Source: an uncultured Clostridia bacterium
GTDB taxonomy: Bacteria; Bacillota; Clostridia; Christensenellales; Borkfalkiaceae
Direction: 5' to 3'
DNA length: 64,000 nt
Assembly: GCA_947632015.1 (NCBI GenBank)
Contig: CANRNP010000001.1
Location: 1 to 64,000, forward strand
In this document: positions 12,673 through 28,997 of the stretch, one piece after another
Layout of the letters: each line of letters opens with the position of its first letter
Numbering within the stretch: the stretch's first letter is position 1
Notes under the pieces: model-generated
Seen by the model: the letters and a program-made list of their open reading frames with translations, nothing else
The model's database searches: none
What the model was told of the DNA's origin: nothing
Made by a program: the position numbers and the translations under genes

Positions 12673-15132
12673 TTATCCGGTAATTTCGAGCCTTCCCTCG
12701 ATTCTGACGATCTCGTAACAGAAGGTGACGTCCTCCCCGCGGACGTTGCGGATAGAGACGGACCCGATGGTGTTCGGCGAGACGCCCACCCCCTTTTGCA
12801 CGCCTTCGATCGAGACGCTTATGGCATCGCCGTTTGCAAGGGAGCCGAGGGAAATGCGGCAACTCTGCGCCGAAAGTTCGGTCCCGTCGTCCTTTTTGGT
12901 GACCGATTCGCTCGTGATCTCGATGTGCCGCGGGATGATTTTGAGCGGTTCGCCCGCAAAGGAGAGAACGTAGTCGTCCTCCGTGAGGGAGAGCCCGTCC
13001 TTCGAGACGGAAATGGGGAGACTCCTGATCGTTTCCATCGGATAGGTACCGACTTTCGTGAGGCTTCCCGAAAGGGAGAAGGAGACCGAGAGATCGCCGA
13101 GATTATTCCATTTCTCGATGAACCAGTCGTTGGAATGGTAGGAGAGCGGGGCGCCGTCGTAGACCTTGCTCAGCTCGTAGAGGGTGATCACGAGGCGGTA
13201 ACGGACGGTGAGGACGCCGTAGCGCACGATCAGCACCTCGTAATTTTCGGTAACGACGTTCCCCGACCTGTCGAAGATCTCAGGGGTGAAGCGGTTTTCG
13301 TACTTTCTCACTTCCTTCGCGCCCGTGCGGACGCCCCCCTCTTTCGCCCGCAGGAAGTGCCCCGCCACGAGCTCGTAGGGGGAATCTGCGGCGTATTCGA
13401 ATTCTTCGTAAAAATGCTCGCCGCCGTCGTACAAAAAGTCCCGCGAGCCCGTAACGATCCGGATGGGGCGGGGCAATATGCTCAGCGTGCCGAAGCGCAG
13501 TTCGATCTCGTAATTGTCGGAGACGTCCTGGTCGTTTTCGTCGAAGATGCGCGCGAAAAACCTGCCCGTAACGGCGCCCTCCCACACGTTTTGCACGGAA
13601 GCCGCAACGGTGCCCTCCACCCTCTGCCCGTGCGCGAGCTCGCCCTCGGCAACGAAGATGTCCTCGCGGGGGTCGGCGGAATGGCGCTCGCCGTCGTAGA
13701 TGAATTCGCGGTCGCGGCAAGCGACGGTGATCGGGCAGGGCAAAACGGTGAGCGTGCCGTATTCCGCCGTGATAAGATATTCGGACGTGACGTCCGACGC
13801 GCGCCCGCCTTCATCGGAGAAAATGCGGATGACGAGGACGTTCGAGATCCCTGCGATCGCGCCGTTTTTCCGGATCACGTCGGTCACGCTGAAATCGACG
13901 GCGAGCCGCGCGGTCTCTCCCGCCGCAAGCGCTTCGGCGCCCGCCGTTTCCCCCGCATAGCGGAGGGAAAATTCACGGCAGACATGGGGAAGCCCGTCAT
14001 AGAAAAATTCCTCGGAGCCCGTTACGAGCACGACGGGACGGGGGGTGACCGCAAGTTCGCCCGCCGAGAGCGAAATGTCGTAATTTTCCGTGACGTCCCT
14101 GCCCTCTCCGTCCGTGACGGTGACTTTAAGCTCGATCTGTTTCCGCCCCGTGTAACGGAGTTCGTTCTCCCCCGAAAGAAGGAGACTGTGTCCCTCGGCG
14201 AGCCCCGAAACTTCCGCGCTTTCAACGTCCGCCGTGAGCGGCAAGCCGTCGTATTCCTTTTCCGCGCCCGCGACAGAGACGGACAGGGGACGCTTTTTCA
14301 CCGTGAGCGCGCCCGATTTTATGCGGACGCGGTAATAATCGGTCATATCCCCCTGCTCCCCAAAAACGGAGTATTCCGGGCGGTTCTCCACCCGCCCGAC
14401 GTCGGTGAGGCTCTCGGAAAAGGTGAGAAACAGCTCGTCGCCGAAGGCGAGGCTCCCCTCCTCTATGATGTATTTGTCGCTCGTGAGCGGGGTGCCGTCG
14501 TAGACCTTTTCCGCGTAGTCCACTTCGACCGTGATTTCGCGGCGGGTGACGGTAACCTCCGTCTCCTCGGCAATGACGCGGTAGCAGGAAGTAACGTCCT
14601 CTTCCCCCTGCATGACGCGAATGCTCTCCGCTTTGGGCGTTATGAACGTATTTTTGCCGAACGTATAAGAAAATTCCGTACAAACGAGCTCGTCGCCCTC
14701 CAAGGGGTCGGCGGTCGCGACGGGCAATTCGCCGTACGTCCATTCCTTTTCGACCCCCACGCGCAATTCCCGCGGAAGCACGGTGAAGAAGTGTTCCTTC
14801 CCCTTTTTGCCCGCGCCCTCGGAGACCGCACGCACCCAGAATCCGCCCGTTGCGGCGGGCAGCTGCTCCATCCATTCCTCTTCGCCATCTCTGCGGTATT
14901 CATAGCGGACGCCCTGAAAGACCGCCTTCGCGCGATAGGGAAGCTCCTCGCCGTAAACGATTTCGGCGGGGCATTCCGCCGCGTCGGAAACCGTCCCCGC
15001 GACGCTCGCCATCGTGATCGCAAAGGCGATGAGAAGAACCAGCGCGGCGCAGACGGGCACGCGGAACCGCCAGAGCTTTTTCAGCATTTCGCCCACACGG
15101 TCTATCCTGTTTTTATACTCGGTGTACCCCAT
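12673..15132 (-). CDS. Membrane-anchored ectoprotein made of tandem YDG/MBG-type repeats
   Basis: N-terminal TM (FRVPVCAALVLLIAFAITMASVAGTV); recurring about 80-90 aa unit with VYDGTPL / EYDGLPL / FYDGLPH / IYDGERH / LYDGGEH / VYDGAPL and DVTxNYxIxxxxGxLxV. Confidence 0.85.
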   Translation of the reverse strand: MGYTEYKNRIDRVGEMLKKLWRFRVPVCAALVLLIAFAITMASVAGTVSDAAECPAEIVYGEELPYRAKAVFQGVRYEYRRDGEEEWMEQLPAATGGFWVRAVSEGAGKKGKEHFFTVLPRELRVGVEKEWTYGELPVATADPLEGDELVCTEFSYTFGKNTFITPKAESIRVMQGEEDVTSCYRVIAEETEVTVTRREITVEVDYAEKVYDGTPLTSDKYIIEEGSLAFGDELFLTFSESLTDVGRVENRPEYSVFGEQGDMTDYYRVRIKSGALTVKKRPLSVSVAGAEKEYDGLPLTADVESAEVSGLAEGHSLLLSGENELRYTGRKQIELKVTVTDGEGRDVTENYDISLSAGELAVTPRPVVLVTGSEEFFYDGLPHVCREFSLRYAGETAGAEALAAGETARLAVDFSVTDVIRKNGAIAGISNVLVIRIFSDEGGRASDVTSEYLITAEYGTLTVLPCPITVACRDREFIYDGERHSADPREDIFVAEGELAHGQRVEGTVAASVQNVWEGAVTGRFFARIFDENDQDVSDNYEIELRFGTLSILPRPIRIVTGSRDFLYDGGEHFYEEFEYAADSPYELVAGHFLRAKEGGVRTGAKEVRKYENRFTPEIFDRSGNVVTENYEVLIVRYGVLTVRYRLVITLYELSKVYDGAPLSYHSNDWFIEKWNNLGDLSVSFSLSGSLTKVGTYPMETIRSLPISVSKDGLSLTEDDYVLSFAGEPLKIIPRHIEITSESVTKKDDGTELSAQSCRISLGSLANGDAISVSIEGVQKGVGVSPNTIGSVSIRNVRGEDVTFCYEIVRIEGRLEITG

Positions 15133-15141
15133 GCGTCCGCC

Positions 15142-18100
15142 TCAATACAGTTCAAGTTTTCCGTCGAAGGTATCGATGTTGTAATTTTTCGTAACGTCCT
15201 CGCCTTCCGCGTTGAAAATGCGCACCGACACCACGCGGTTGCTCGCTCTTCCCCGCTTCGAAAGACTGCCTTCGAGCACGACGACGACCCTGTGCCCTTC
15301 CACGAGCCCTTCCGATACCCTGTATTCCTCCGAAGTGAGGGTCTGCCCCGTAAAGGGCTCGCTGGCGCTTCCCGCCCATACGATGATCGAACGTGGGGTA
15401 ACGGTGAGGGCGCCGTATTCGTAGGAGATGATATATTCCTCGGTGACGTCTTGAAATTGCGCGTTCCGCACGGTGACGGTAAGCGTATTGCTCACCGAGC
15501 CGACGTCGCGGATCGTGGCGACGCTTGCCGCGTCGAAAAACAGCATGTGACCGGGAGCGAGGGCGGAGCGCTCTTTTGCAAGCTCGAATCCGCTATCCGA
15601 ATGGTAAGTCCCGTCGTACACGAAATCGCGGCTTTGGGTGATGATGAACAGCCTTCTGCGGAATTGTTTGAGATATTCGTCGATTTGGGACTTTCCCGCC
15701 TCCAACGCCCGCTCGACCGCCTCGCCGTCTACCGCGCCCTCGATGCCTTGAACGCCCTTTTCGAGCAGTTCGCCGTAGAGCTCGCCCTCGATTTCCCGCT
15801 TTTGCTCTTCCGAGAGGTCCTCGCGCTCCTCGATGAGCCCGCTCTTTTGCCCGACGTAATCTTCCAGCTCGCCCTTCGCCTGCTCTTTCGCTCGGTGCAG
15901 CTCGTCGTCTGCTTCCGATACCCGCTGCCACACGGCATGGAAAACGACGTTCCCCGTCACCTCGTATTCCGCGCCCGCGGGCAAGAAATCGTGAAATGTC
16001 CGGGAAGGATCCCCTTCGATCCAGTACGCGCCGTTTTCCGCATGGAGCTCCTCTGTCCAGCCGACGAGGATGTAATTTCTGCCCAGCCGCTCGGCGAGGT
16101 AGGCATGGGCGCCGTATTCGTTCAGCCCGAAGAGCACGATCTTTGTGCCCGGAAGGATGTCGCTCACTTCTTTCTGCCAGTTATCGGGGTCTCTCTCCGA
16201 AGAAGAGCGGTATTCGACGGTGTAGCGCTCCAGCTCCCGCCAGTCGGGGACGCCGTTCTGGTTCTTGTCCTCCGCCCAGAGCGCGTGCAAAGCGATCTCG
16301 CCCGCCTTGGCGTGAGAAGGATCGACCGTGTACGATTTTTGCAGAACGGGCTTTGGAATTTCGTCCTCGCCGCGCAAAATGTCGTGTTCTTTCGTGCTCC
16401 AACCCAAGAGGGTATAGGGTACGCCGTCGCGGAAGAGCCATACGCCCGCAGGCAATCCGACCGTCTGCCCCGCCTTGTAGGTTCCGAGCTCGCTCGGAAG
16501 GGAAAGACCTTCCGTTTCCCCGCTCGTTTCGGAGACGAGCGTGAGGCGGTAGGAGCGGTCGCCTAACGAAAAGTCGGGATCTGCCTGACCTGCCCCGTCT
16601 CCATTTCCGACCGCGTCCACCTTGATCCAGCCGCTTCCCGCGATATAGATCTCCGTCCACGCATGCCCCTGATCGGCGTAAAATACCGTATCTTTGTTTG
16701 CCGCCACCCTGCCGACGTATCCCGTAACGTAGCGCGCGGGAATGCCGACGGCGCGGAAGAGAAGGGTCGCCGCCGCCGCAAAGTGCTGGCAGATGCCCTC
16801 CCTGTACTCGTTGAGGAAGGCGAGCACGACGTCGGGCGAAGAATCGAGACCGTCGTCGTAATCGAGATTATATCTCGCCCGCCCGCGCACGAAGGAGCCG
16901 ATCTTATCGATGATCTGCGGATCGTCCGGGGCGATCCCCTCCTCGGCAAGGATGTTTTCCAGACCGCGGCGGGTGCTCGCGGGAATGGAGAGGTACTTTG
17001 CGCAGACGTAGGCGTAATATTCCTTCTCCCGCGCGGCGAGTTCGCCCGTGAGCGCGGGGAGCTCTTCCCCGTATTTATAAATGCGGAAGGGGACCGTGTA
17101 GGGCGCGGAGACCTTCGCGGAGCAACGCACGTCGCTCGTCTGCACGGGATAGCCGTCGTCCATCGTCGCGTAATAGGGCAACAGGAAGAAGGGCGAATCG
17201 ATCGTGACCGAATAGACGTCGCCGCCGAGCGCGGCGCCCGTGAGATAGTTGTAGCAATACTTGCCGTAGAGGAGCTCCGGATAGTCCTCGCCCGCCGCCC
17301 ATCCGTGATAAGTATAGTCGCCGTAACTGCTTTCGCGCAAATACATGGACGTATCGACGTTCGCATAGACGGAAAAGAGGGGCATGTGCGGAGGATCCGC
17401 TTTGGAAAACGTCGTATCGCGGTTCTCCTCTTCCGGCTCGGTAGCGCTTTCGTCCGTTTTCCACACGGCATAGAGGGCGAGCGTATCCCGCACGGCGAGC
17501 ATTTCGTCGACCGTGTAGCTCCCGCCCGCGGGGATGAATCTGCCGCTCGCGCGGAGAACAAATTCCTCGCGTTCCTCCTCCGTTTCGCAAAGATAGCTGT
17601 CGAGCCCGCCGTCCTCCGTCCAGCCGAACAGGATATACTTCTCCCCGTCGCGCTCCAAAGCGCCCCGTTCGGGGGTCGTGACGGACTCCCCGCACACCGC
17701 CTGCGCCGCGCTCGGAAGCGTTCCTTGAAGGAAAGTCGTCTGCCCCTTCTCGCGGTTTCGGTATTCCACCGTGTAGAGCTTTTGCCAAAGAGGATAGAGC
17801 GTTTCGTCGCTTTGGACGACGAGTTCGCCGAAAAGCACTTCCCCCCAGAGCTCCCCTTCGCAGAGGGGATACCGCTCCTCCCTGCTCCAACCCGCAAAAC
17901 GGTAAGCGCGGTTTTCCGCCTCGACGGGCGCAAGAGCGGGAAGCTCGACCGTCGTATTGCACAAAACGGAGAGATCGGCGGGATATTCTACGCCTTCGAA
18001 CGTGTGGCGGAAGGTGACGGTGTAATATTCGCCGCTATCCTCCCAGTCGGGGATGCCGTTCTTGTTTTCGTCCTTTGCCCAGACGGCATAAAGCCCGATC

Positions 18101-19389
18101 TTCCCCTCTTCGGCGTCCTCAGGGTCGATGAGATAGGTCTGCGCCGTGAGGTAAGCCTTTCCCTCTTCGGCAAACATTTCGTCGAATTCCGCCTGCGAAT
18201 GCACGGTGTAACGGCTGAGCGCGCCGTCCTTCGTCCACCCGCAGAGCATGTAATCTTCGCCGAGGCGGAAATTCCCATCGAGAGGGACTTTTTCGCCCGC
18301 CCTCCCGATAAAGGGGACCTTCCACGGTTCGGGGCGCACCTCCCCTTCGGCGAGGTTTTCGAAATGGACCTCATAAAGGGAAGGCGGGGCGGGCAGCGCG
18401 CCGCTCCCCGTGACTTCGACCTTGATCCAGCCGACGCCGTCGCGGTACACTTCCACCCAGGCGTGCGCGCCCGAAGAATCGATCTCCGTCCATTCGTTTT
18501 CCCTTACGTTCCCCACAAAGCCGATGACGTAGCGGGCGGGAATGCCCAGCGTGCGGTAAAGGAGGGTCGCCGCCGAGGCAAAATGGCGGCAGACCCCTTG
18601 TTGATACTCGGTGAGGAAGGAGACGACGATGTCGTCGCTTTGATCGAGCGCGGGATCGTACCGCTCCGAATACTCCGCCGACGATTTTATGAATTCCGCG
18701 ACGGCGCCGACGACGTCCTTCCCCTCGCCGAGCCCGTTCTGTTCGGCGAGAGAGGAGAGCACCTGCCTCGTTCCGGCGGGGACGTTGAGATAGGAATCAT
18801 AGACAAATTCGCGGTAGGCAAGTTCGCGTTCGGAATATTCCTTCGCGGAAGAGACGTTCCCCTCCTCGTAAGAGATATAGTCCGCTAAGTAGCTCTTGCC
18901 CGTATCGCCCGCATAGGAGACGTCGCTCGTTTGCGCGTCGTATCCGCTGTTCTCGCGGCAGAGATAGTAGGGCAGGAAATACTGCCCGTTGTACGATATG
19001 ATCGTGATATGGTTGAGCGCATACCCCGAAGCCTGCATTTCGGCTCCGGCGAGACTGTTCATGCCGTTCACCCCGTCGAGATCGCCCCCGTAGCTTTTAG
19101 CGTTGTTCCAGCTTTTGCCCGTGTAATCGCCGAAACTCATGAGGCGGAAATACATGCGCTTGGTTTCGTACCCGAACACTTTCAGCGCCGTTTTGGCGTC
19201 GTTGCGGTCGTAGTCATCCTTCGTCAGATCGCCCGAAGTATCGAGTTTCTCGCTCACAGGGTCATCTCCGTCGCCCGTACTGTCGCCCGTCTCCCGCAGG
19301 AAGAGCGACGCGCCGTAGAGCACTAAGGCGAGCAAGATCACGATGAGCAGAGCGCCCACGATATAGATCGGTTTCGAACTGTGCTTCAT
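15142..19389 (-). CDS. Membrane-anchored protein with two transglutaminase-like modules, InlB-type repeats and C-terminal YDG/MBG repeats
   Basis: N-terminal TM; GVCRHFASAATLLYRTLGIPARYVIGFVG...GAHAWVEVYRDGVGWIKVEV and GICQHFAAAATLLFRAVGIPARYVTGYVG...GHAWTEIYIAGSGWIKVDA; C-terminal DFVYDGTYHSD...DVTEEYIISYEYGALTV. Confidence 0.9.
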   Translation of the reverse strand: MKHSSKPIYIVGALLIVILLALVLYGASLFLRETGDSTGDGDDPVSEKLDTSGDLTKDDYDRNDAKTALKVFGYETKRMYFRLMSFGDYTGKSWNNAKSYGGDLDGVNGMNSLAGAEMQASGYALNHITIISYNGQYFLPYYLCRENSGYDAQTSDVSYAGDTGKSYLADYISYEEGNVSSAKEYSERELAYREFVYDSYLNVPAGTRQVLSSLAEQNGLGEGKDVVGAVAEFIKSSAEYSERYDPALDQSDDIVVSFLTEYQQGVCRHFASAATLLYRTLGIPARYVIGFVGNVRENEWTEIDSSGAHAWVEVYRDGVGWIKVEVTGSGALPAPPSLYEVHFENLAEGEVRPEPWKVPFIGRAGEKVPLDGNFRLGEDYMLCGWTKDGALSRYTVHSQAEFDEMFAEEGKAYLTAQTYLIDPEDAEEGKIGLYAVWAKDENKNGIPDWEDSGEYYTVTFRHTFEGVEYPADLSVLCNTTVELPALAPVEAENRAYRFAGWSREERYPLCEGELWGEVLFGELVVQSDETLYPLWQKLYTVEYRNREKGQTTFLQGTLPSAAQAVCGESVTTPERGALERDGEKYILFGWTEDGGLDSYLCETEEEREEFVLRASGRFIPAGGSYTVDEMLAVRDTLALYAVWKTDESATEPEEENRDTTFSKADPPHMPLFSVYANVDTSMYLRESSYGDYTYHGWAAGEDYPELLYGKYCYNYLTGAALGGDVYSVTIDSPFFLLPYYATMDDGYPVQTSDVRCSAKVSAPYTVPFRIYKYGEELPALTGELAAREKEYYAYVCAKYLSIPASTRRGLENILAEEGIAPDDPQIIDKIGSFVRGRARYNLDYDDGLDSSPDVVLAFLNEYREGICQHFAAAATLLFRAVGIPARYVTGYVGRVAANKDTVFYADQGHAWTEIYIAGSGWIKVDAVGNGDGAGQADPDFSLGDRSYRLTLVSETSGETEGLSLPSELGTYKAGQTVGLPAGVWLFRDGVPYTLLGWSTKEHDILRGEDEIPKPVLQKSYTVDPSHAKAGEIALHALWAEDKNQNGVPDWRELERYTVEYRSSSERDPDNWQKEVSDILPGTKIVLFGLNEYGAHAYLAERLGRNYILVGWTEELHAENGAYWIEGDPSRTFHDFLPAGAEYEVTGNVVFHAVWQRVSEADDELHRAKEQAKGELEDYVGQKSGLIEEREDLSEEQKREIEGELYGELLEKGVQGIEGAVDGEAVERALEAGKSQIDEYLKQFRRRLFIITQSRDFVYDGTYHSDSGFELAKERSALAPGHMLFFDAASVATIRDVGSVSNTLTVTVRNAQFQDVTEEYIISYEYGALTVTPRSIIVWAGSASEPFTGQTLTSEEYRVSEGLVEGHRVVVVLEGSLSKRGRASNRVVSVRIFNAEGEDVTKNYNIDTFDGKLELY

Positions 19390-19399
19390 ATTTCCTCCT

Positions 19400-21055
19400 C
19401 TACCCGTTCCGCGCGATGCGGCGGATATATTCTTTGCAGACGGTCATGCGTTCGCCGAACAATTCATCCAGAAAGTCGCACAACTCCTCGGACATGTTGC
19501 GCACATATACCGCGTTCTGCGCCTCCAACTTTCTCAAAACCTTTTTGGAGATGATGTCGTCGAGCGCGTCGAGTTCGTCCCCCCCGCAGTCGACAAACAC
19601 GGGGACGTAGCTCTTGATCTGCTTCATGATGCGGTTGCCGAACGAGATATGGAATTTCTCGCTCAGGAAGGCGTCGAGCTTGCCGAGGCGCCTTAAATTG
19701 CGCGACGTGATCTCAAAACACTCGCACGAGTCCTTTACGAGCGCGTCGAACTGCTCCGCGGAAAGGCGGATGTTGCGGCAACTCTCCGCGCGGAAGGGCT
19801 CGCTCTTCCGGTCGAGGTTGAGCACCATCGCACGGTCGTACACCTTATCCGAGATCGCAAACGTCGAATCGTCGTTGTTCGCCGTGCCGATGAACCACAT
19901 GTTTTCGGGAAGTTTGATCCGCCCCTCGTTGAGGAGCTTGGGATCGGTTTTCCACTTGTCCGAGACGACTTCGAGGAGCCGCGCTTCGGGGTCGGGGATC
20001 TCCAAGAGAGACAGAAACTCCGCGAAATAATATTCCACGCGGGCGATATTCATCTCGTCGAGAATGGTGATGTAGATATTTTTGTTATAGTTCGCCTCGT
20101 ACATTTTTTGCAGGAGCAACGTCTCGTTGAACCGCTTGGTGAACTCGTTATAGTAGCCGAGAAGATCGGTGCGCTCCTTCCACATGGGCTGGACGGGGAT
20201 CACCGTAGACGGGTTTTCGAGGAATTCCCCGAAGGCGTAGGCGAGGGAAGTTTTTCCCGTGCCCGACATGCCCTGCAAAATGAGGATGCGGGAGACGGCA
20301 AGCCCCGCGATAAAGCGGCGGATGTCCGATATGTCGTAATAAAGCCCCAACTTGTTCGCCGCAAAATTGCGGAATTCTTCGCAAAGTTCTTTTAAGGTAA
20401 CCTCTTCGTCGAACCCGCCGCCCATAACGCGGTAGGGGTCGTTATCGAGCTCCGCGAGCAGGCTGAAACGGGGCTTTTCCACCTGTTCCTTCTTTCTAAG
20501 CTCCTCTTCTTCCTTGCGGCGGCGCTCCTCGGCGTTCTTCCGCGCGATGACTTGCGACTGGAAGCGGATGCGCCTTTTGAGCGCGGCGACCGTACGGCTG
20601 CGGCGGAAATTGACAAAGATCATACAGCCTGCGAGAATGGGCAACAGGAGCAGATGGGAAAGAAAGAGGGTGCCGCCGATACCCGAAGGCTCCGAGGCGC
20701 TCATGTAGTACCAGATCTCCGCCTCCAAATAGCAATAGATGAGGGAAATGATGATGAGCGCCAAGCTCCAACGCTGTAACTTGATGTCGTTGGCGGTGCG
20801 GAAGAGCGCGTTCGATGCGTTGAGCCGATACAGAATGAACAGCAAGACAGGCAGCGCCACGAGGATCGCGATGAAAACGAATCCGACCGCTTCGCCGTTC
20901 AGACCCAACGTCTCCACGAAATTTTTCCAGCCCTCGCTGTCCGAATAGAACAGGATCAACGAGGACAGAACAAGTCCCCCCACGATCAGCGTGAGGATCA
21001 AAAGAATCAGCGGCAACAGAAACCGTGCGCGCACGCTCTTTCCCGGCTTACTCAT
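19400..21055 (-). CDS. Membrane-anchored McrB-like AAA ATPase (copy 1; about four N-terminal TM helices)
   Basis: Walker A LQGMSGTGKTS, Walker B ITILDEMNIARVEYYFAEFLSLLE, FIGTANNDDSTFAISDKVYDRA. Confidence 0.88.
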   Translation of the reverse strand: MSKPGKSVRARFLLPLILLILTLIVGGLVLSSLILFYSDSEGWKNFVETLGLNGEAVGFVFIAILVALPVLLFILYRLNASNALFRTANDIKLQRWSLALIIISLIYCYLEAEIWYYMSASEPSGIGGTLFLSHLLLLPILAGCMIFVNFRRSRTVAALKRRIRFQSQVIARKNAEERRRKEEEELRKKEQVEKPRFSLLAELDNDPYRVMGGGFDEEVTLKELCEEFRNFAANKLGLYYDISDIRRFIAGLAVSRILILQGMSGTGKTSLAYAFGEFLENPSTVIPVQPMWKERTDLLGYYNEFTKRFNETLLLQKMYEANYNKNIYITILDEMNIARVEYYFAEFLSLLEIPDPEARLLEVVSDKWKTDPKLLNEGRIKLPENMWFIGTANNDDSTFAISDKVYDRAMVLNLDRKSEPFRAESCRNIRLSAEQFDALVKDSCECFEITSRNLRRLGKLDAFLSEKFHISFGNRIMKQIKSYVPVFVDCGGDELDALDDIISKKVLRKLEAQNAVYVRNMSEELCDFLDELFGERMTVCKEYIRRIARNG

Positions 21056-22880
21056 CTTCCCCCTCTCCTGCGCCGTCCGCCTTCGGGAAGTCCCCTTCCG
21101 CCGCTTCGGGCTCTTTGTCTCTTTCTATCGTTTCTATCGTTTCGGGCTGTTCGTCTCTTTCGACCGTTTCCGCCGTTTCGGGCTGTTCGTCTTTTTCGAC
21201 CGTTTCCGCTTTTGGCGGCGTTTCTGCGGGTTCCGTTTCCCCGCGCTTTTTTTTCTGCGCCATGATGGAAGCTACAAGCGCCCGCCACATTTCGCGGCGG
21301 ATGCGCCGTTTCGTCTTTTTCCACTGCCCGCGGAAGAATACCTGAAAGAGGGCGTACTCCTTTTCCAGCTCGCGGAAAGCCTCTTCGGACGTGAAATCGT
21401 CGGACGGGGCGGTATAACCCTGTTCAAAGCGCAACGCATTCAGCCTGCCCTGCGCCAGAGCGCGCGCCTCTTCCGACTTGCGCAATTCCTCCGTGCGGTC
21501 TGCGAGTTCCCCCTCTTTTTCGCGCAGAAGGGCGCGGTGCTCCCCGTCGCGCGCGTTGAGCTCGCGATAGTATTCCTCCTCGGCGGCACGGAGTTCTTCG
21601 CGGTGCGCCGCCCGCTCGCCGTCGCGCTCGCGCGCCATTTCGTCGAGCCGCGCTCCTACCTCCGCCAGCTCCCTGCCGTGCCGTTCGTTGAGCTTTTCGA
21701 TCTCGTTGCGGTGCCCCGATATGACGAGGTTGAACTTCTCGATCTCGCCATTCAAACGCTCGATCTCCGCGCGGCAGGAAACGAGTTCTTCGTGCTCCGC
21801 CTCTAATTCGTTGTTGCGCGTCTCCAAGAGGAGCATATACTCCTCAGGGTCCCCCGCGCGCTCTTCGATACGGCGGCGAAGCGCCTTTAAGAGCTCCTTC
21901 CTCCGCTCGGCCTCCGCCTCTCTGCGCCGCGCTTCCTCCTTTTCGTACTCCGCTTCGAGGTAGTCCTCGATGCCGAGCCCGTGCTCATAGGTAAGAAAGG
22001 AGGCGAGCATTGCCGTTTCGGCAAATTCCTCGGCAAAGGCTCCGGGAAGCGGGGCGATCGTCTTTTCCTCTTTGAGGACGGTGTAGCCGTCCTTTGTGTA
22101 GGAAGAGAGAAATTCGTAGAGGGCGACCACCTCTTTGAAGTTCTTGTCCATGCGCAAAACGTTGGTTTTGGTAATGGGCGGTTTGAGTTTATCCACCTTT
22201 GCGACTTCGAGCATCAGCGGCGTGCGGAGATAGAAATACACCGAACGCAGAATGAGATCGATGCGGTCTACCGCGTCCTTCATGGGGTTGTGTTCGAGCA
22301 GATACGGATCGTCCTTCCGCTCTTCGGAAAGTTCCATGCGGTAGACGAGGCGCTCTTTGTTGAGGTTGACGACCTTATCGAACTTCACTTCGCCCGTGTA
22401 GGTGTTGGTGAGCTCCAAGATCTTGTGATAGCGCAGGGAGACGAAATCGCGCAGGTTGCAGAGCACCATGTAGAGAAAACGGTTCTCATAGACGGAATAG
22501 TCGTTGAGGCGCTCCACGGTATAGAGACGGTCGGGGATGATGTCGTTCCCCTTCTGCTCCCGCGAAATATAATTGCTGTGCCGCGCCAGATGCTCGACCG
22601 ATTCCCGCGAGACGTGCTTCACCTTTTCGATCTCCACCGTTTCGCCGTTGGAGAGAATGAACTGCCGCTCCTCGCCGATCGCCTTTTCGAGAAAGGGAAG
22701 CCCCCGCTCGATGGCTTCGATCCAGTCCTCCTCGATGACGCAACTCGTGCGCGTGACCGTGAGGCGGTCCTTTTCGGCGTCCGCACGGGCGATCGCCTCG
22801 CGGCGCTGCCCCGCCTCCTTTGAAGCGGTCTGCTTGCGGTATTCGAGAAATGCGCGATATAAAAGGTCTGTCAGGGTCAT
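21048..22880 (-). CDS. DUF2357-like protein with long coiled coil and Glu/Thr-rich repeat tail
   Basis: LYTVERLNDYSVYENRFLYMVLCNLRDFVSLRYHKILE resembles the DUF2357 family linked to McrB-like ATPases; central heptad-rich coiled coil; tail ETVEKDEQPETAETVERDEQPETIETIERDKEPE. Confidence 0.65.
   Translation of the reverse strand: MTLTDLLYRAFLEYRKQTASKEAGQRREAIARADAEKDRLTVTRTSCVIEEDWIEAIERGLPFLEKAIGEERQFILSNGETVEIEKVKHVSRESVEHLARHSNYISREQKGNDIIPDRLYTVERLNDYSVYENRFLYMVLCNLRDFVSLRYHKILELTNTYTGEVKFDKVVNLNKERLVYRMELSEERKDDPYLLEHNPMKDAVDRIDLILRSVYFYLRTPLMLEVAKVDKLKPPITKTNVLRMDKNFKEVVALYEFLSSYTKDGYTVLKEEKTIAPLPGAFAEEFAETAMLASFLTYEHGLGIEDYLEAEYEKEEARRREAEAERRKELLKALRRRIEERAGDPEEYMLLLETRNNELEAEHEELVSCRAEIERLNGEIEKFNLVISGHRNEIEKLNERHGRELAEVGARLDEMARERDGERAAHREELRAAEEEYYRELNARDGEHRALLREKEGELADRTEELRKSEEARALAQGRLNALRFEQGYTAPSDDFTSEEAFRELEKEYALFQVFFRGQWKKTKRRIRREMWRALVASIMAQKKKRGETEPAETPPKAETVEKDEQPETAETVERDEQPETIETIERDKEPEAAEGDFPKADGAGEGEDE
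21111..21212 (-). repeat. In-frame short tandem repeat encoding an ETxExDEQPETxETxERDEQPE-type acidic tail
   Basis: Forward strand repeats of cgtttc(c/g)gggctgttcgtctctttcgaccgtttccgc units. Confidence 0.7.
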
Positions 22881-22893
22881 GGCTCTCTCCCGC

Positions 22894-24207
22894 CTATGCG
22901 TTGTTTGCGAGCCTGCGGATGTATTCCTTGCAGGCGGTCATTTCCTCTTCGCCGAACAGCCCGTCGAGGAAGGCGCAGACCTCCTCCGCCATGCTCCGCA
23001 CATATACGGTGTTCTGCGTTTCCAGCTTGCGGAAAACTTTTTTGGCGACGATGTCGTCGAGCGCTTCGAGCTCCCGCCCGCCGCACACGACATAGACGGG
23101 GATATACGCCTTGATCTGCTTCATGATGCGGTTCCCGAAGGTGAGGTGGAAGGTCTTGATGAGATATTCGTCCAACGTCTCCAACTTTTCGAGCGTTTCC
23201 GCGGAGACGGTGTAAGCGCTCATCGCCGCCGCGGCGAGATCGGTAAAGTCCTTCGCCGAAAGACGGACCGTTCTGCTCGACGCCACATGGAAGGGCTCGC
23301 TCTTCCGGTCGAGGTTGAGCACCATCGCGCGGTCGTACACCTTATCCGAGATCGCAAACGTCGAATCGTCGTTGTTCGCCGTGCCGATGAACCACATGTT
23401 TTCGGGGAGCTTGATCCGCCCCTCTTTGAGGAGTTTGGGATCGGTCTCCCACTTGTCCGAGACGACTTCGAGGAGCCGCGCTTCGGGGTCAGGGATCTCC
23501 AAGAGGGACAGAAACTCCGCGAAATAATATTCCACGCGGGCGATGTTCATCTCGTCGAGAATGGTGATGTAGATATTTTTGTTGTAGTTCGCCTCGTACA
23601 TTTTTTGCAGGAGCAACGTCTCGTTGAACCGCTTGGTGAACTCGTTATAATAGCCGAGAAGATCGGTGCGCTCCTTCCACATGGGCTGGACGGGGATAAT
23701 GGTGGAGGGATTCTCCAAAAACTCCCCGAAGGCGTAGGCAAGGGAAGTTTTTCCCGTGCCCGACATGCCCTGCAAAATGAGGATGCGGGAGACGGCAAGC
23801 CCCGCGATAAAGCGGCGGATGTCCGATATATCGTAATAAAGCCCCAACTTGTTCGCCGCAAAATTGCGGAATTCTTCGCAAAATCCCGCGAGCGTTGCCG
23901 TATCGAAGGATTCGGCTGGCGGTTTGCCGTAATAGCGGTCGTCGAGTTCGTTGAGCATGGAAAAGCGGCTCGCCGTCGCCTCTTTTTTCGCCGTTTCCCC
24001 CGCCGCCGCGGCGCCTTTCGGTCTTTTCCGCATCCGCTTCATCGCTTTGGAAAAGCGACTTTCCTTCATCATGACGGAGATGATGAGAAGCAGGATGATC
24101 GCGAGGATGATGACGATATAGATGATTATGGCGAGCGGCGCGGTCATTTTGCTCCATGCCCACTTCAAAAAGTTGTTGACGTCGTCGAAGATCACAAGTA
24201 ATTGCAT
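22894..24207 (-). CDS. Membrane-anchored McrB-like AAA ATPase (copy 2; single N-terminal TM)
   Basis: APLAIIIYIVIILAIILLLIISVMM TM; Walker A/B and sensor region almost identical to copy 1. Confidence 0.88.
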   Translation of the reverse strand: MQLLVIFDDVNNFLKWAWSKMTAPLAIIIYIVIILAIILLLIISVMMKESRFSKAMKRMRKRPKGAAAAGETAKKEATASRFSMLNELDDRYYGKPPAESFDTATLAGFCEEFRNFAANKLGLYYDISDIRRFIAGLAVSRILILQGMSGTGKTSLAYAFGEFLENPSTIIPVQPMWKERTDLLGYYNEFTKRFNETLLLQKMYEANYNKNIYITILDEMNIARVEYYFAEFLSLLEIPDPEARLLEVVSDKWETDPKLLKEGRIKLPENMWFIGTANNDDSTFAISDKVYDRAMVLNLDRKSEPFHVASSRTVRLSAKDFTDLAAAAMSAYTVSAETLEKLETLDEYLIKTFHLTFGNRIMKQIKAYIPVYVVCGGRELEALDDIVAKKVFRKLETQNTVYVRSMAEEVCAFLDGLFGEEEMTACKEYIRRLANNA

Positions 24208-24208
24208 A

Positions 24209-27200
24209 TCATTCCTCTCCTTCTTCGCGGATGTTGCGCAGCATTCTCGCGCACCGCGGGAGGTCCTCTCCGAAAATTTCGTTCAGAACGGGCAGAAGTT
24301 TATCCGTCCCCGTCCGCCGCCAGATGGCGAGCATGCGGGCGAGCAGTTTTACCGCCACCACGCTGTCGAGCGCCTCTTCCTGCGTGCCGCCGCAGGCAAG
24401 ATAGACCGCCGCGTAATTCTCCGTCATGAGCCAGAGCCGATTCCCGATGCGGTAAGGCTCCCGCGCGTTGACGGCGCTCTCCAAACGGTCTACCCGCTTC
24501 CAGAGGGCCTCGTCGATCTCGCACGTCATTTTGGCGAGACGGTCGGATTCCGCCAGCTGGCGGTAGCCGTAAGGGCTCGTGAGACGCTTCCCCTCCCGCG
24601 GCGGAGCGGGCGTGAGTTCGGGAGTGAGCCACGACGCGACGTCCGCCACACAGGCGGGCAACTCTTCGGGGCTCTGCCCCTCGGACAGAATGAGGAGAAA
24701 ACGAAGATTCGGCGCGAGCGCGCACTGTTCGCCCGATCCGAGATCGAGCGGCTTTGCGCGGGGATCGCCGAGCCGCTCGGCGACGGGCGCGAAATATCCC
24801 TCCAACGCCGACAGCTTCACCCGGTTGAGCACCGCGAACTGCAAATAGGGCTTTAATTCGTTTGCGGAGACGATGGCGCGGTAGATGTTGCTCTTCACAC
24901 GCACGCCGTGGACGCCGTCTTTATAGAGAAGGTCGTCCAGGTCGCGGCAACGCTCCGCCCCTTCCATGTAGAAGGGAGAGCCGAAGTACTCGGCGAGCAG
25001 TCCCGCCAGCTTTACGAGCGGCTTTACGGGGCCGCGCAGAATGAGACAGCGGGTGGAGGCGAGCGCCGAAAAGAGGGAACGCACCGTATCGGCGCTCATC
25101 ACGAGCCCGCTATCCGCCGTGAACGCGGAGAGCTCCTCGCACGCCCGCGCAAAGGTGAGCGATTCGTCGAAATATGCCTCCCCTTCCTCTCCGCCGCCGC
25201 GAAGAGTCTCCTCCGTCTCCTTTTCTTCCAGCGCCTTCACGAAGAATTGCTCCAAAGGGGCATTTTCCGCCGACTCCGCGCCGTCGAGACGGACGGCGCT
25301 CTCAGGCAGGCTTGCGATAGCGCCCTTGCCCCGCGTTGCGCGTTCGCAGATGAGCGCGGCGCAGGAGAGCAGCAAGAGAAAATTCACGAAAAACATGAGA
25401 CCGCCGAAGCCGCCGAACGAGACCCCTGCGCTCGCCGCGGCGATGAGGAATACGTCCGCGATCGCCGAAATGGCGAGCATGATCAGCGCGGCAATGCGCA
25501 TGATCTTGTGCTCCTTGCGGTTGCGGAGAATGCGGGATCGCGCGTCTTTCAGCGTGTATCCCCCGTGCATGACGTTGGTTTCGCTCAAAAGATAATCGGA
25601 GATCGCCTCTTCCTTTTCCGCCCTCGGCTCCCCCGCGACCGTAAACACGCCTTTGAGGCGGATGTCGGTGACGGACGCGCCGATATAGAGGGTATAGGCG
25701 CCGCCGTCCGTGGAGAAGGTGTGCGAATCTTCGTTGTAATAGCAAAATCTTTCCGCGGGCAAAGCGATCTCGACGGGCTTGCTCTCGCCCGCGGCAAGTT
25801 CCACTTTTTCGAAGGCGACAAGCTCTTTCAGGGGGCGGACCCCCTTCTTCCCCGCATACACCTGCACGACCTCTTTCCCCGCAAAGGAGCCGAGGTTGGT
25901 TACGGTGAAGCGTACGGAGCGTTCCCCGATTTCAAGCCCCGAATAGGCGAAGGGGGAATAGCCCAGCCCGTGCCCGAAGGGATAGCGGGGCGGCGTGCCC
26001 GAAAGATCGTAACGGCGGTAGCCGACGAGCCCGCCCATGCGGTTGCGGCCCGCGTCTTTATATTTTTTGGAGACGAGGAACAGCTCGTCGGTGTTATCGT
26101 AGCCCGTGCGGGTGAGTTTGCCCGAAGGATTCACCTTGCCCGCGAGCACCCCCATCAGAGCGTCCTGCGCAAAACCGCCCTCCGCGGGGGCGAGCAGGAC
26201 TGCGTGCAACTTTTCGTCGAAGCCCATCTCCACGGGACGGTCCCCGCCGACGACGGCGACGATCTTCTTCCCCGTGCGGACGAGCGCGTCGATGAGCGCA
26301 AGCTGGCAGGCGGGCAAAGCGAGGCTCTTTATCAGCGACATTTCGTTCTCCCGCGCGCCGAGCCCCAAAAAGAGCAGGACGACGTCCGCCTCCTCGGCAA
26401 CGCGCACCGCTTCGGGGATGAGCTCCTCGCTCCGCTCTTCCGTGAGCGAATAGCCCTCCGCCTGCCCCGCGAACCGCAGGTTATGATCGGGTCCCGCCAA
26501 CCGCGAAAAGCGCACGGCAAAGCTCTCTTCCCCCTCCGTGGCGAGCGCGCCGACGACGGCGACCTTCGTTTCGGGGGAGAGGGGCAGGACCTCTTTGTTC
26601 TTCATCAAGACGATGCTCTCTTCCGCCGCCCTGCGGCAGAGGGATTCGGGATGTTCGGGCGGGAGAGTTTTGAGCGACGACAGCCTTTGCGCCAAGCCGA
26701 TGACCCGATCGACCGCCTCGTCGAGCCGCTCTTCGGAAAGCGCCCGCCCCGAACGGACCTCTTCGGCAAGCTCCTCCTCGGTGGCAGTCCCCTCCTCGAC
26801 CCGCTCCTTCAAACGGCGGTATCTGCCGAGGGCGGAATCGAGGGGCAGAACGGCGCCGCCCAAAAACACGTTCCCGCCCAAGAGCTCGTTAAAATCGGCG
26901 TCGAGCGGGACGTTCTCGCAGAAGAGGAAGCTCTCCCCCTTCGAAGCCTCACGCACCATGCGGCGGTTGACGTCCGAATAGTCCCCCGAAAGAGGGGCAA
27001 GCGAGGCGCGCAAAGCGTCCGCATTCCCCTTTTCCTGCGCGACGCGGAAGGGGATCTCATAGAACTTTTTGAGCGCCTCGTCGCTGCGGCGGACGTCGAG
27101 ATATTCCGCGTCCTCTTCCCGCAGGGAATATTCGCTCAGACAGCTCCCCACGTTGGCGCGGCGGATCCCTTCGAGACAGCTCCCGCCCAGCGCGCCGCAG

Positions 27201-27529
27201 AGGTAGGGATCTTCGGAAAGACGGTCGGAATAGGGGCTGACCCCGCTCTTGACGTCGGGCGCCACGACGAGTTCCACGCCGCGCGCGCCCGCCTCCGCCG
27301 CAAGCTGCTCGGAAACGTCGCAAAAGAGGGCGCGGTCCCAGCTCCGCGCGAGCCGTGCGGAATCGGGATAGCGCGAAGCGGCGGCGTTGATCTCCTTCAT
27401 CGTCGCCACGTTCACTTCGGCGACGCCGGCGCGCAGGATCTCCGCGTCGGCAAGGCTCTTCACGTCGGTGAGGAGCGCCAGCTTTTGCCGCAGATTGAGT
27501 TTTTCGATAACTTTGGGATATTTCAGCAT
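24209..27529 (-). CDS. GH3-like pseudoglycosidase fused through a TM hairpin to a degenerate AAA domain
   Basis: GH3 features (SEDPYLCGALGGSCLEGI; AAEESIVLMKNKEVLPLSPETKVAVVG; RYPFGHGLGYSPFAYSGL; FTVTNLGSFAGKEVVQVYAG), TM segments near 25340..25505, then a C-terminal region alignable by eye to the neighbouring AAA proteins but without Walker residues. Confidence 0.85.
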   Translation of the reverse strand: MLKYPKVIEKLNLRQKLALLTDVKSLADAEILRAGVAEVNVATMKEINAAASRYPDSARLARSWDRALFCDVSEQLAAEAGARGVELVVAPDVKSGVSPYSDRLSEDPYLCGALGGSCLEGIRRANVGSCLSEYSLREEDAEYLDVRRSDEALKKFYEIPFRVAQEKGNADALRASLAPLSGDYSDVNRRMVREASKGESFLFCENVPLDADFNELLGGNVFLGGAVLPLDSALGRYRRLKERVEEGTATEEELAEEVRSGRALSEERLDEAVDRVIGLAQRLSSLKTLPPEHPESLCRRAAEESIVLMKNKEVLPLSPETKVAVVGALATEGEESFAVRFSRLAGPDHNLRFAGQAEGYSLTEERSEELIPEAVRVAEEADVVLLFLGLGARENEMSLIKSLALPACQLALIDALVRTGKKIVAVVGGDRPVEMGFDEKLHAVLLAPAEGGFAQDALMGVLAGKVNPSGKLTRTGYDNTDELFLVSKKYKDAGRNRMGGLVGYRRYDLSGTPPRYPFGHGLGYSPFAYSGLEIGERSVRFTVTNLGSFAGKEVVQVYAGKKGVRPLKELVAFEKVELAAGESKPVEIALPAERFCYYNEDSHTFSTDGGAYTLYIGASVTDIRLKGVFTVAGEPRAEKEEAISDYLLSETNVMHGGYTLKDARSRILRNRKEHKIMRIAALIMLAISAIADVFLIAAASAGVSFGGFGGLMFFVNFLLLLSCAALICERATRGKGAIASLPESAVRLDGAESAENAPLEQFFVKALEEKETEETLRGGGEEGEAYFDESLTFARACEELSAFTADSGLVMSADTVRSLFSALASTRCLILRGPVKPLVKLAGLLAEYFGSPFYMEGAERCRDLDDLLYKDGVHGVRVKSNIYRAIVSANELKPYLQFAVLNRVKLSALEGYFAPVAERLGDPRAKPLDLGSGEQCALAPNLRFLLILSEGQSPEELPACVADVASWLTPELTPAPPREGKRLTSPYGYRQLAESDRLAKMTCEIDEALWKRVDRLESAVNAREPYRIGNRLWLMTENYAAVYLACGGTQEEALDSVVAVKLLARMLAIWRRTGTDKLLPVLNEIFGEDLPRCARMLRNIREEGEE

Positions 27530-28119
27530 GGCTCCTCTCCGAACTCCGTCATGACCGCTTCTTCCTCCTCTCCTTCTTCTTCCTTTCCGAGATTGCGGAA
27601 GAGGGAAAAGGCACCGATCGTAAGCGCGAGGGCGGCGACGACGAGGAAGAGGACGCGCTTGGACCTCCCCACGCCCGAAACGACGACGCTTCGCCTGCCG
27701 CCCGTTTTGCGCGAGAGTTTTTCGCGGTCGGGCGGCTCCGTCTCCGGAAGATACTTCACCCGTATCCCGCTTTTTTTCACTTCATAAACATAGTCGTGCG
27801 AGCGGACGGACAGCACTTCCACGCGCACGCGGGCGCATGCGCCGCTCAACGGGATCTTCTCCGTCGGACCGAAGATCTGCGCGGGCGCAACGGGCGGACC
27901 GCCGTAAACGTATTCCCGCTTGCCGATCGGACGTCCGTCGTCGGTATAGCCGAAAATTTCGAGGCGGAATCCCGTGACGACCTCTCCGCTCCCGTTGCAA
28001 AGGCGCAGGAGCAGATAGCGTTTCCCGTCCTCTTCGGCGATGAGATATTGCTCGACCGTAAGAAACCGGCTGTGCTGATGACCGGTGTAATTCCCCTTAT
28101 CCAAGATCCGCGCGCTCAT
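27523..28119 (-). CDS. Small tail-anchored membrane protein (EQYL domain, paralogue of next gene)
   Basis: RFLTVEQYLIAEEDGKRYLLLRLCNGSGEVVTGFRLEIFGYTDDGRPIGKREYVY; C-terminal TM VLFLVVAALALTIGAFSLF. Confidence 0.7.
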   Translation of the reverse strand: MSARILDKGNYTGHQHSRFLTVEQYLIAEEDGKRYLLLRLCNGSGEVVTGFRLEIFGYTDDGRPIGKREYVYGGPPVAPAQIFGPTEKIPLSGACARVRVEVLSVRSHDYVYEVKKSGIRVKYLPETEPPDREKLSRKTGGRRSVVVSGVGRSKRVLFLVVAALALTIGAFSLFRNLGKEEEGEEEEAVMTEFGEEPC

Positions 28120-28997
28120 TCTTCGCTCCCCGCCCTCTTCTTTTTGTGAAAAAGAGCACGGAGCCGTTCGGCGGCTCTTCCCGTTTTACGGCGAAGGGCG
28201 AGCATGAAACGGCTCGTGTAAAAGAGGACAAACAGATTGCGCACGGAATAGAAAAGATTTTTCGTGCGGGATACAAGGCGGGAGAGCGTTGCCGCGCCGC
28301 CTTTGGAAATTCCCCCTCCGAGACGGCGCAGACCTGCCGCCGCGCGTTTGAGGCAGAACAGGAGAAATACCGTTACGGAGACGGTTGCGGCGGAGAGAAA
28401 GGTCATGAGCGACACGAATCCCGCCCCGCCTTCGGGAAGAAGGGAGCCTTCCCCGCTCAAAAGGCGGAAAAAGCAGATCTCGAACAACAATGCCTGTAAA
28501 GAGAGCAAAAGCGTGAGAAAGAGCGCCGTTGCGATCATCGCGGGAAGAGACCGCCTGAAATTTTTTTCGCTGCGGGGAAGCGCCGTTTCGTTGACGGCGC
28601 GGAGGGCGGGAGAGACGGAGCCCGTATCCTTTGGCAGGGCGATCTGCTCGCCCCGTCCGTTCTTGGGCAATTCCCGCACGTTGAGGATCCCGATGATCCT
28701 TCGGCTGCGGTCGTAGACATAGAGGTCGTATTCGCAATAGAGGACGTCTTTCTTCCACTTGCCCAAAAAGACGGCGTCCTCGCCGATCCGCGCCACAAGA
28801 TATTGCTCCAAGGCAAAAGAAAACGCGGAGGACGGCTCATACACGACCGCACTCCCCGCGGGAAAATTGAGTTTGCGGATCCCGCGGTCCCGCGCGGCAT
28901 ACCCTGCCCCGCGCACCGCGAGGAGCAATTTGGGGAGAACTGCCGCGCAGACCGTTCCCAAAAGGGCTGTTCCGAGTAGGAGAAGAAAGACAAACAA
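28116..28997 (-). CDS. Membrane protein with EQYL domain; probable first gene of the operon (TTG or alternative start)
   Basis: FSFALEQYLVARIGEDAVFLGKWKKDVLYCEYDLYVYDRSRRIIGILNV plus three predicted TM segments; 4 bp overlap with the next gene. Confidence 0.7.
   Translation of the reverse strand: MFVFLLLLGTALLGTVCAAVLPKLLLAVRGAGYAARDRGIRKLNFPAGSAVVYEPSSAFSFALEQYLVARIGEDAVFLGKWKKDVLYCEYDLYVYDRSRRIIGILNVRELPKNGRGEQIALPKDTGSVSPALRAVNETALPRSEKNFRRSLPAMIATALFLTLLLSLQALLFEICFFRLLSGEGSLLPEGGAGFVSLMTFLSAATVSVTVFLLFCLKRAAAGLRRLGGGISKGGAATLSRLVSRTKNLFYSVRNLFVLFYTSRFMLALRRKTGRAAERLRALFHKKKRAGSEE

Follow-up and report, generated by a model that had tools for sequence, protein, structure and literature searches.

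An uncultured Clostridia bacterium carries, in the window analysed here (64,000 nucleotides; contig CANRNP010000001.1 of assembly GCA_947632015.1, positions 1 to 64,000), a gene that joins a glycosidase-like half to an AAA-like half, each without its catalytic residues. The question that this locus raises is what such a protein is and what purpose it may serve. By sequence and prediction, the fusion is a conserved double pseudoenzyme, formed by a dead GH3, a membrane hairpin and a dead third McrB-type AAA+ paralogue. Its identity is firm; its mechanism is inferred. No relevant work on GH3 pseudoenzymes, or on fusions of GH3 with AAA, was present in the literature searched.

AlphaFold and profile searches divide the protein in three: the N-terminal half resembles a GH3 beta-glucosidase, a helical hairpin in the membrane follows, and the C-terminus is an AAA+ domain (Table 1). 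The full-length AlphaFold2 model, computed from a family alignment of 46 sequences, reached a mean pLDDT of 87, with values above 90 across most of both halves.

Table 1. Coordinates of the operon, its genes and the domains and sites of the fusion within the window.
Feature	Position	Strand	Evidence or remark
Operon, A-B-fusion-AAA1-DUF2357-AAA2-TG-D	12673..28997	(-)	
A: three-TM protein, first gene of the operon	28116..28997	(-)	Hydropathy, synteny
B: conserved N-terminal domain and one TM	27523..28119	(-)	
GH3/pseudo-AAA fusion gene	24209..27529	(-)	Single uninterrupted ORF, 1106 aa
Degenerate GH3 N-terminal (TIM-barrel) domain	26660..27529	(-)	Residues 1-290
Retained SED motif	27209-27217	(-)	
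Site of the KH motif	27131-27136	(-)	Reads S132-E133
Site of the SDW nucleophile Asp	26915-26917	(-)	Reads E205, within FCENV
GH3 C-terminal domain	25958..26614	(-)	Residues 306-524; alpha/beta; Pfam PF01915 Glyco_hydro_3_C, 3.6e-32
Fn3-like domain	25673..25873	(-)	Residues 553-619; Pfam PF14310, 5.9e-18
Membrane helical hairpin	25313..25552	(-)	Residues 660-739; AF2 helices and hydropathy
Pseudo-AAA domain	24218..25165	(-)	Residues 789-1104; without P-loop, Walker B, sensor 1
AAA1: single N-terminal TM and intact McrB-like AAA+ NTPase	22894..24207	(-)	
DUF2357 (McrC-like) protein with coiled coil	21048..22880	(-)	Pfam 23.4 bits, cut-off 23.3
AAA2: four predicted TM and intact McrB-like AAA+ NTPase	19400..21055	(-)	
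TG: N-terminal TM anchor, two transglutaminase-like domains and repeats	15142..19389	(-)	Pfam 3.2e-45, two stretches
D: N-terminal TM anchor and YDG-type surface repeats	12673..15132	(-)	PF18657, 2e-6

Membership of the N-terminal half in GH3 was supported by the presence of the N, C and Fn3 domain fold, the last being typical of GH3 enzymes. Foldseek comparison of the model with GH3 beta-glucosidases gave E values of 1e-39 to 1e-40, and the GH3 profile match reached 4.6e-142; the Pfam Glyco_hydro_3 N domain was matched weakly (3.3e-4), under its cut-off. The same three-domain fold, Fn3-like domain included, occurs in the beta-glucosidases C. thermocellum BglB (7ms2), PSTG1 (8j9f) and B. adolescentis (5wab); in contrast to these, the fusion lacks every catalytic motif and the substrate loops, is predicted to be cytosolic, and is joined to TM helices and a pseudo-AAA domain.

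GH3 catalysis depends on the KH, SDW and E..DR residues. The first two are substituted in the fusion, and the acid/base E..DR motif is gone from its GH3 C-terminal domain. Aligned independently by profile to 7ms2, a beta-glucosidase of solved structure, the fusion had its degenerate residues exactly at SDW and KH, lacked the DGP and GRNFE(Y) loops through deletion, and contained no intact nucleophile motif elsewhere. An alignment of 60 distinct fusion proteins with intact GH3 enzymes from the order to which they belong showed each of the KH lysine, SDW and E..DR in 0/60. Ten of the 60 have Asp at the aligned nucleophile column, never in an SDW-type context, and therefore the loss is one of motif and not strictly of residue. 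It could still be proposed that the GH3 half is an enzyme whose catalytic apparatus has been displaced, for instance to a D or E at the old nucleophile column, where acidic residues are frequent; 57/60 also retain the ED of SED. This explanation is very improbable, however, in view of the three motifs missing throughout, the deleted loops, and a nucleophile column that also contains R, K, S, A, V, T, I and Y. In a tree, the pseudo-GH3 sequences split from intact GH3 of the same order with 100% support, with which a single origin would be compatible. BLAST of the fusion against its own genome located ordinary GH3 genes at other places.

The C-terminal half is homologous across its full length to both flanking AAA proteins. 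Residues 691-1104 matched AAA2 by BLAST (1.2e-18, 27% identity), and hhalign against the AAA1/AAA2 profile gave a probability of 99.9 and an E value of 5.9e-37 over 325 columns. The Walker A lysine has become L (LRGPVKPLVK), the Walker B DE reads N902-R903, and the NNDD sensor reads SEGQ at 949-952. These losses extend to the family, with a P-loop in 0/50 pseudo-AAA domains and with Walker B and the sensor Asn (NxxD) also lost. Conservation is concentrated in the C-terminal lid and not in the nucleotide pocket, with the near-invariant residues W1010, K1011, D1014, N1030 and E1037 located in the lid. Modelled alone, the domain adopts an AAA+ fold (pLDDT 94.8, pTM 0.93), whose best PDB match is E. 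coli McrB, followed by NorQ, CbbQ and other helix-2-insert AAA+ proteins. The TM-scores of these matches are low, about 0.4, possibly owing to differing subdomain orientation. In a PDB sequence profile search McrB was the sole match.

The first-pass annotation, made from sequence alone, had claimed a double pseudoenzyme, with a TM hairpin between a GH3 and a degenerate AAA domain that resembles the flanking proteins, and all of this held. Its individual readings were likewise confirmed: KH as SE, SDW as CEN, a recognisable SEDPYL region and GH3 C-terminal domain, and loss of the Walker A lysine, Walker B DE and sensor. Neither of the two outcomes it had named as refuting, a non-AAA fold for the C-terminus or an intact nucleophile Asp elsewhere in the GH3 half, was obtained. 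What it did not recognise was the age and conservation of the family, the McrB-like nature of the AAA relatives and their DUF2357 (McrC-like) partner, the occurrence of the pseudo-AAA without GH3 in some operons, and the variation of the linker between 0, 2 and 4 TM helices.

The absence of catalytic motifs from both halves could also indicate a decaying gene or an assembly chimera. The search for further GH3-TM-AAA fusions, which the same annotation had suggested, recovered at least 60 distinct sequences (22-60% identity), and a chance origin is therefore excluded. Values of dN/dS were 0.10-0.45 in seven pairs, with GH3_N, GH3_C plus Fn3 and pseudo-AAA each measured; the protein is thus maintained and not decaying, under purifying selection on both halves. 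With the reading frame intact in at least 60 independent sequences and synteny conserved as well, decay or chimerism is all but excluded and was counted as already refuted.

The hairpin of the window fusion has TM cores at about residues 679-697 and 710-728 by hydropathy. Across the family, hydropathy predicted two TM helices in 36/60 linkers, four in 19/60 and none in 4/60, with one unresolved, and the fusion showed neither a signal peptide nor a hydrophobic segment at its N-terminus. An even number of TM helices without a visible signal peptide places both halves on the same side of the membrane, and a cytosolic location for both, which had been suggested as a possibility, remains the likely and simplest reading (59/60 even).

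The remaining genes of the operon combine motors with proteins of surface type. GxSGTGKT, DE and NNDD are each present in 101-102 of 102 AAA1/AAA2 sequences, the last motif fitting NxD as well as NxxD, and the only PDB match of these proteins is McrB. In the window, AAA1 and AAA2 share 84% nucleotide identity across 983 bp. Pairs in other loci were observed to share about 94-100% over 1.1 kb while their anchors differ (L066, L075, L085, L088-L094, L096, L102, L104, L106, L109, L112, L114, L118, L120, L121, L123 and L124). Near-identical motor bodies on differing anchors are likely the product of gene conversion. The DUF2357 protein ends in a coiled coil and a conserved W..TKK.IRK tail; neither in it nor elsewhere in the operon was a PD-(D/E)xK or other nuclease family found. 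Its homology to McrC rests on Pfam DUF2357, because a PDB search with its profile returned mostly coiled-coil proteins and McrC was not among the matches.

TG, D and B each have a single TM, an N-in orientation and secreted-type repeats, and TG is predicted to be extracellular. The second transglutaminase domain of TG carries Cys-His-Asp, and the first has Glu at the expected Asp. In several relatives B is a giant protein of about 1300-2200 aa (for example L047:2639-9283 and L066:2214-7193), composed of the conserved N-terminal domain, a single TM and BspA-type LRR repeats. By eye, A and B have similar soluble domains, in which a YLVA/YLIA stretch is followed by strands; no Pfam family matched either, and they may have an unnamed domain in common.

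A genome-collection scan with the AAA alignment yielded 511 encoding stretches, the best 74 loci of which were examined. The fusion is present in 56 of them (55 by ORF and L060 by tblastn), with AAA1 directly after it in 54/55 loci and A/B ahead of it in 46/55. Its hosts are Clostridia MAGs, Ca. Gallimonas and the cultured Anaerocaecibacter muris (L104). Three complete operons (L088, L089 and L121) have the pseudo-AAA without GH3, and three others (L103, L107 and L117) are without both. In place of GH3, the pseudo-AAA of L088 (3131-4885) carries a zinc ribbon (Pfam) and TM segments, and that of L089 (7869-9833) a cysteine-rich, multi-TM N-terminus, so that the N-terminus may be an exchangeable input module. 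The simplest history, tentative in the absence of a rooted tree, would be that a third AAA paralogue lost catalysis and acquired a pseudo-GH3 N-terminus in most lineages. The AAA core was found in 91/396 genomes of the order at E <= 1e-100 and in 0/398 further genomes of the phylum at E <= 1e-50. Many of the 91 have a simpler sister locus with one TM-anchored AAA and DUF2357; those inspected (L128-L136) encode a single TM-anchored McrB-like AAA, with DUF2357 in most, scored at 40.1 bits by Pfam. The same sister loci were seen to sit among secreted proteins with ATFAWFS-type N-termini.

Among named systems, the closest kind is CoCoPALM (Bell et al. 2024, PMC11090510), known in the literature searched only from that paper and its preprint, in which AAA-DUF2357 pairs stand beside a SipW-type signal peptidase. 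The window operon shares with it TM-anchored McrB-like AAA+ proteins and a DUF2357/McrC-like partner with a coiled coil; TM helices of AAA1/AAA2 by hydropathy and the coiled-coil matches of the DUF2357 profile satisfy its TM plus coiled-coil criterion. Another mark of CoCoPALM is NxD in place of NxxD, and the NNDD of AAA1/AAA2 can be read as either. Sister loci, with the same AAA family and gene order, adjoin SipW-type signal peptidases (above the TIGR02228 cut-off in L128 and L129). Unlike in CoCoPALM, no linked signal peptidase or pilus assembly gene was identified in the window operon, which adds a second active AAA, the pseudo-AAA/pseudo-GH3 subunit, TG and YDG-repeat proteins and, in relatives, BspA-LRR surface proteins; no second AAA, pseudo-subunit or surface proteins of these kinds are described in the searched passages of PMC11090510. 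The operon is therefore likely an elaborated relative of CoCoPALM and not a plain member. Of solved structures, E. coli McrBC (PDB 6hz4, 6ut6) comes closest to the active as well as the pseudo AAA and also has a DUF2357 partner, but the window proteins are membrane-anchored, lack a DNA-binding domain, have no PD-(D/E)xK nuclease that could be found, and include a dead third AAA subunit. MoxR/NorQ-type H2-insert AAA+ proteins (NorQD, CbbQ, RavA) provide the next-best fold matches of the pseudo-AAA and are likewise motors paired with a dedicated partner; however, sequence profiles retrieve McrB and not MoxR, and the operon has no VWA partner.

These likenesses suggest a mechanism that remains inferred. 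The fusion would be a non-hydrolysing regulatory or structural subunit of a membrane-bound McrB/McrC-like complex, in which AAA1 and AAA2, nearly the same motor body on different anchors, would hydrolyse NTP. The DUF2357 domain of McrC stimulates McrB (PMC11090510), and by analogy the nuclease-less DUF2357 protein may stimulate AAA1/AAA2. Through its conserved lid the pseudo-AAA would occupy or cap ring positions, so that the ring loses its symmetry and is held in place at the membrane. The pseudo-GH3, on the cytosolic side, would be a module that binds a sugar, a cell-wall precursor or a protein and thereby gates or docks cargo. The complex may target the single-pass surface proteins encoded with it (transglutaminase/YDG-repeat, BspA-LRR), at the stage of assembly, cross-linking or display. 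Both hetero-oligomerisation and a role at the surface are inferred from operon context, there being no interaction, ring-assembly or nucleotide data, and this reading of a dead subunit in a membrane-bound McrB-like motor for the handling of surface proteins can be held or doubted with equal reason.

Alternatively, the fusion could be a passive scaffold, located outside the AAA ring, by which DUF2357 or surface-protein precursors are held at the membrane. The missing nucleotide site, the variable number of TM helices in the linker and the other N-termini borne by the pseudo-AAA in L088 and L089 would agree with this. Preservation of the AAA+ fold over the full length and the near-invariant lid residues, which an inter-subunit interface would predict, speak against it, and it remains a less likely possibility.

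A further alternative is that the operon is a membrane-tethered McrBC-type anti-phage system, whose fusion senses phage-induced envelope damage and whose membrane and surface proteins are effectors. It is favoured by McrB/McrC ancestry, by the match of AAA1/AAA2 to the PADLOC candidate phage-defence model PDC-M26A (2e-46) and by a weak match of the DUF2357 protein to LmuB. The PDC-M26A match counts against the surface-motor reading, as does the lack of any SipW-type peptidase above cut-off in the window's own genome, none having been identified in the operon either. Defence is nevertheless unlikely: no nuclease was found in the operon, gene order is strongly conserved across an order and not patchy, and the remaining components are surface-type proteins. 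By eye, the window neighbours outside the operon also look housekeeping (MetG-, TrpS-, Era- and RecO-like).

The surface-motor reading can be taken further, to an McrBC-derived motor repurposed in gut Clostridia as a membrane machine that assembles surface structures, in which a dead glycosidase, borne by a dead AAA subunit, is the cytosolic sensor of glycans or cell-wall precursors. This bolder version is more readily doubted than accepted; were it true, it would represent a new class of envelope machinery. On the inferred reading, the fusion is a conserved subunit of a membrane machine that has not been described before, encoded next to the cell-surface proteins and descended from the McrBC restriction family. 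Restriction-type McrB/McrC machinery without a nuclease, at the membrane and tied to surface proteins, is of interest in an order that is widespread, mostly uncultured and found in the gut, and a double pseudoenzyme as a fixed subunit offers a concrete system for studying the control that dead AAA subunits and dead glycosidases exert on live motors. Since Anaerocaecibacter muris is cultured, the question is open to experiment.

Beyond the order, a phage collection gave no match, and a viral structure library gave merely generic MoxR-like AAA matches. A few AAA matches occurred in records labelled Anaeroplasmataceae or Bacillales, and a plasmid collection contained one matching gene, from Pseudanabaena, which adjoins a DUF2357 gene.
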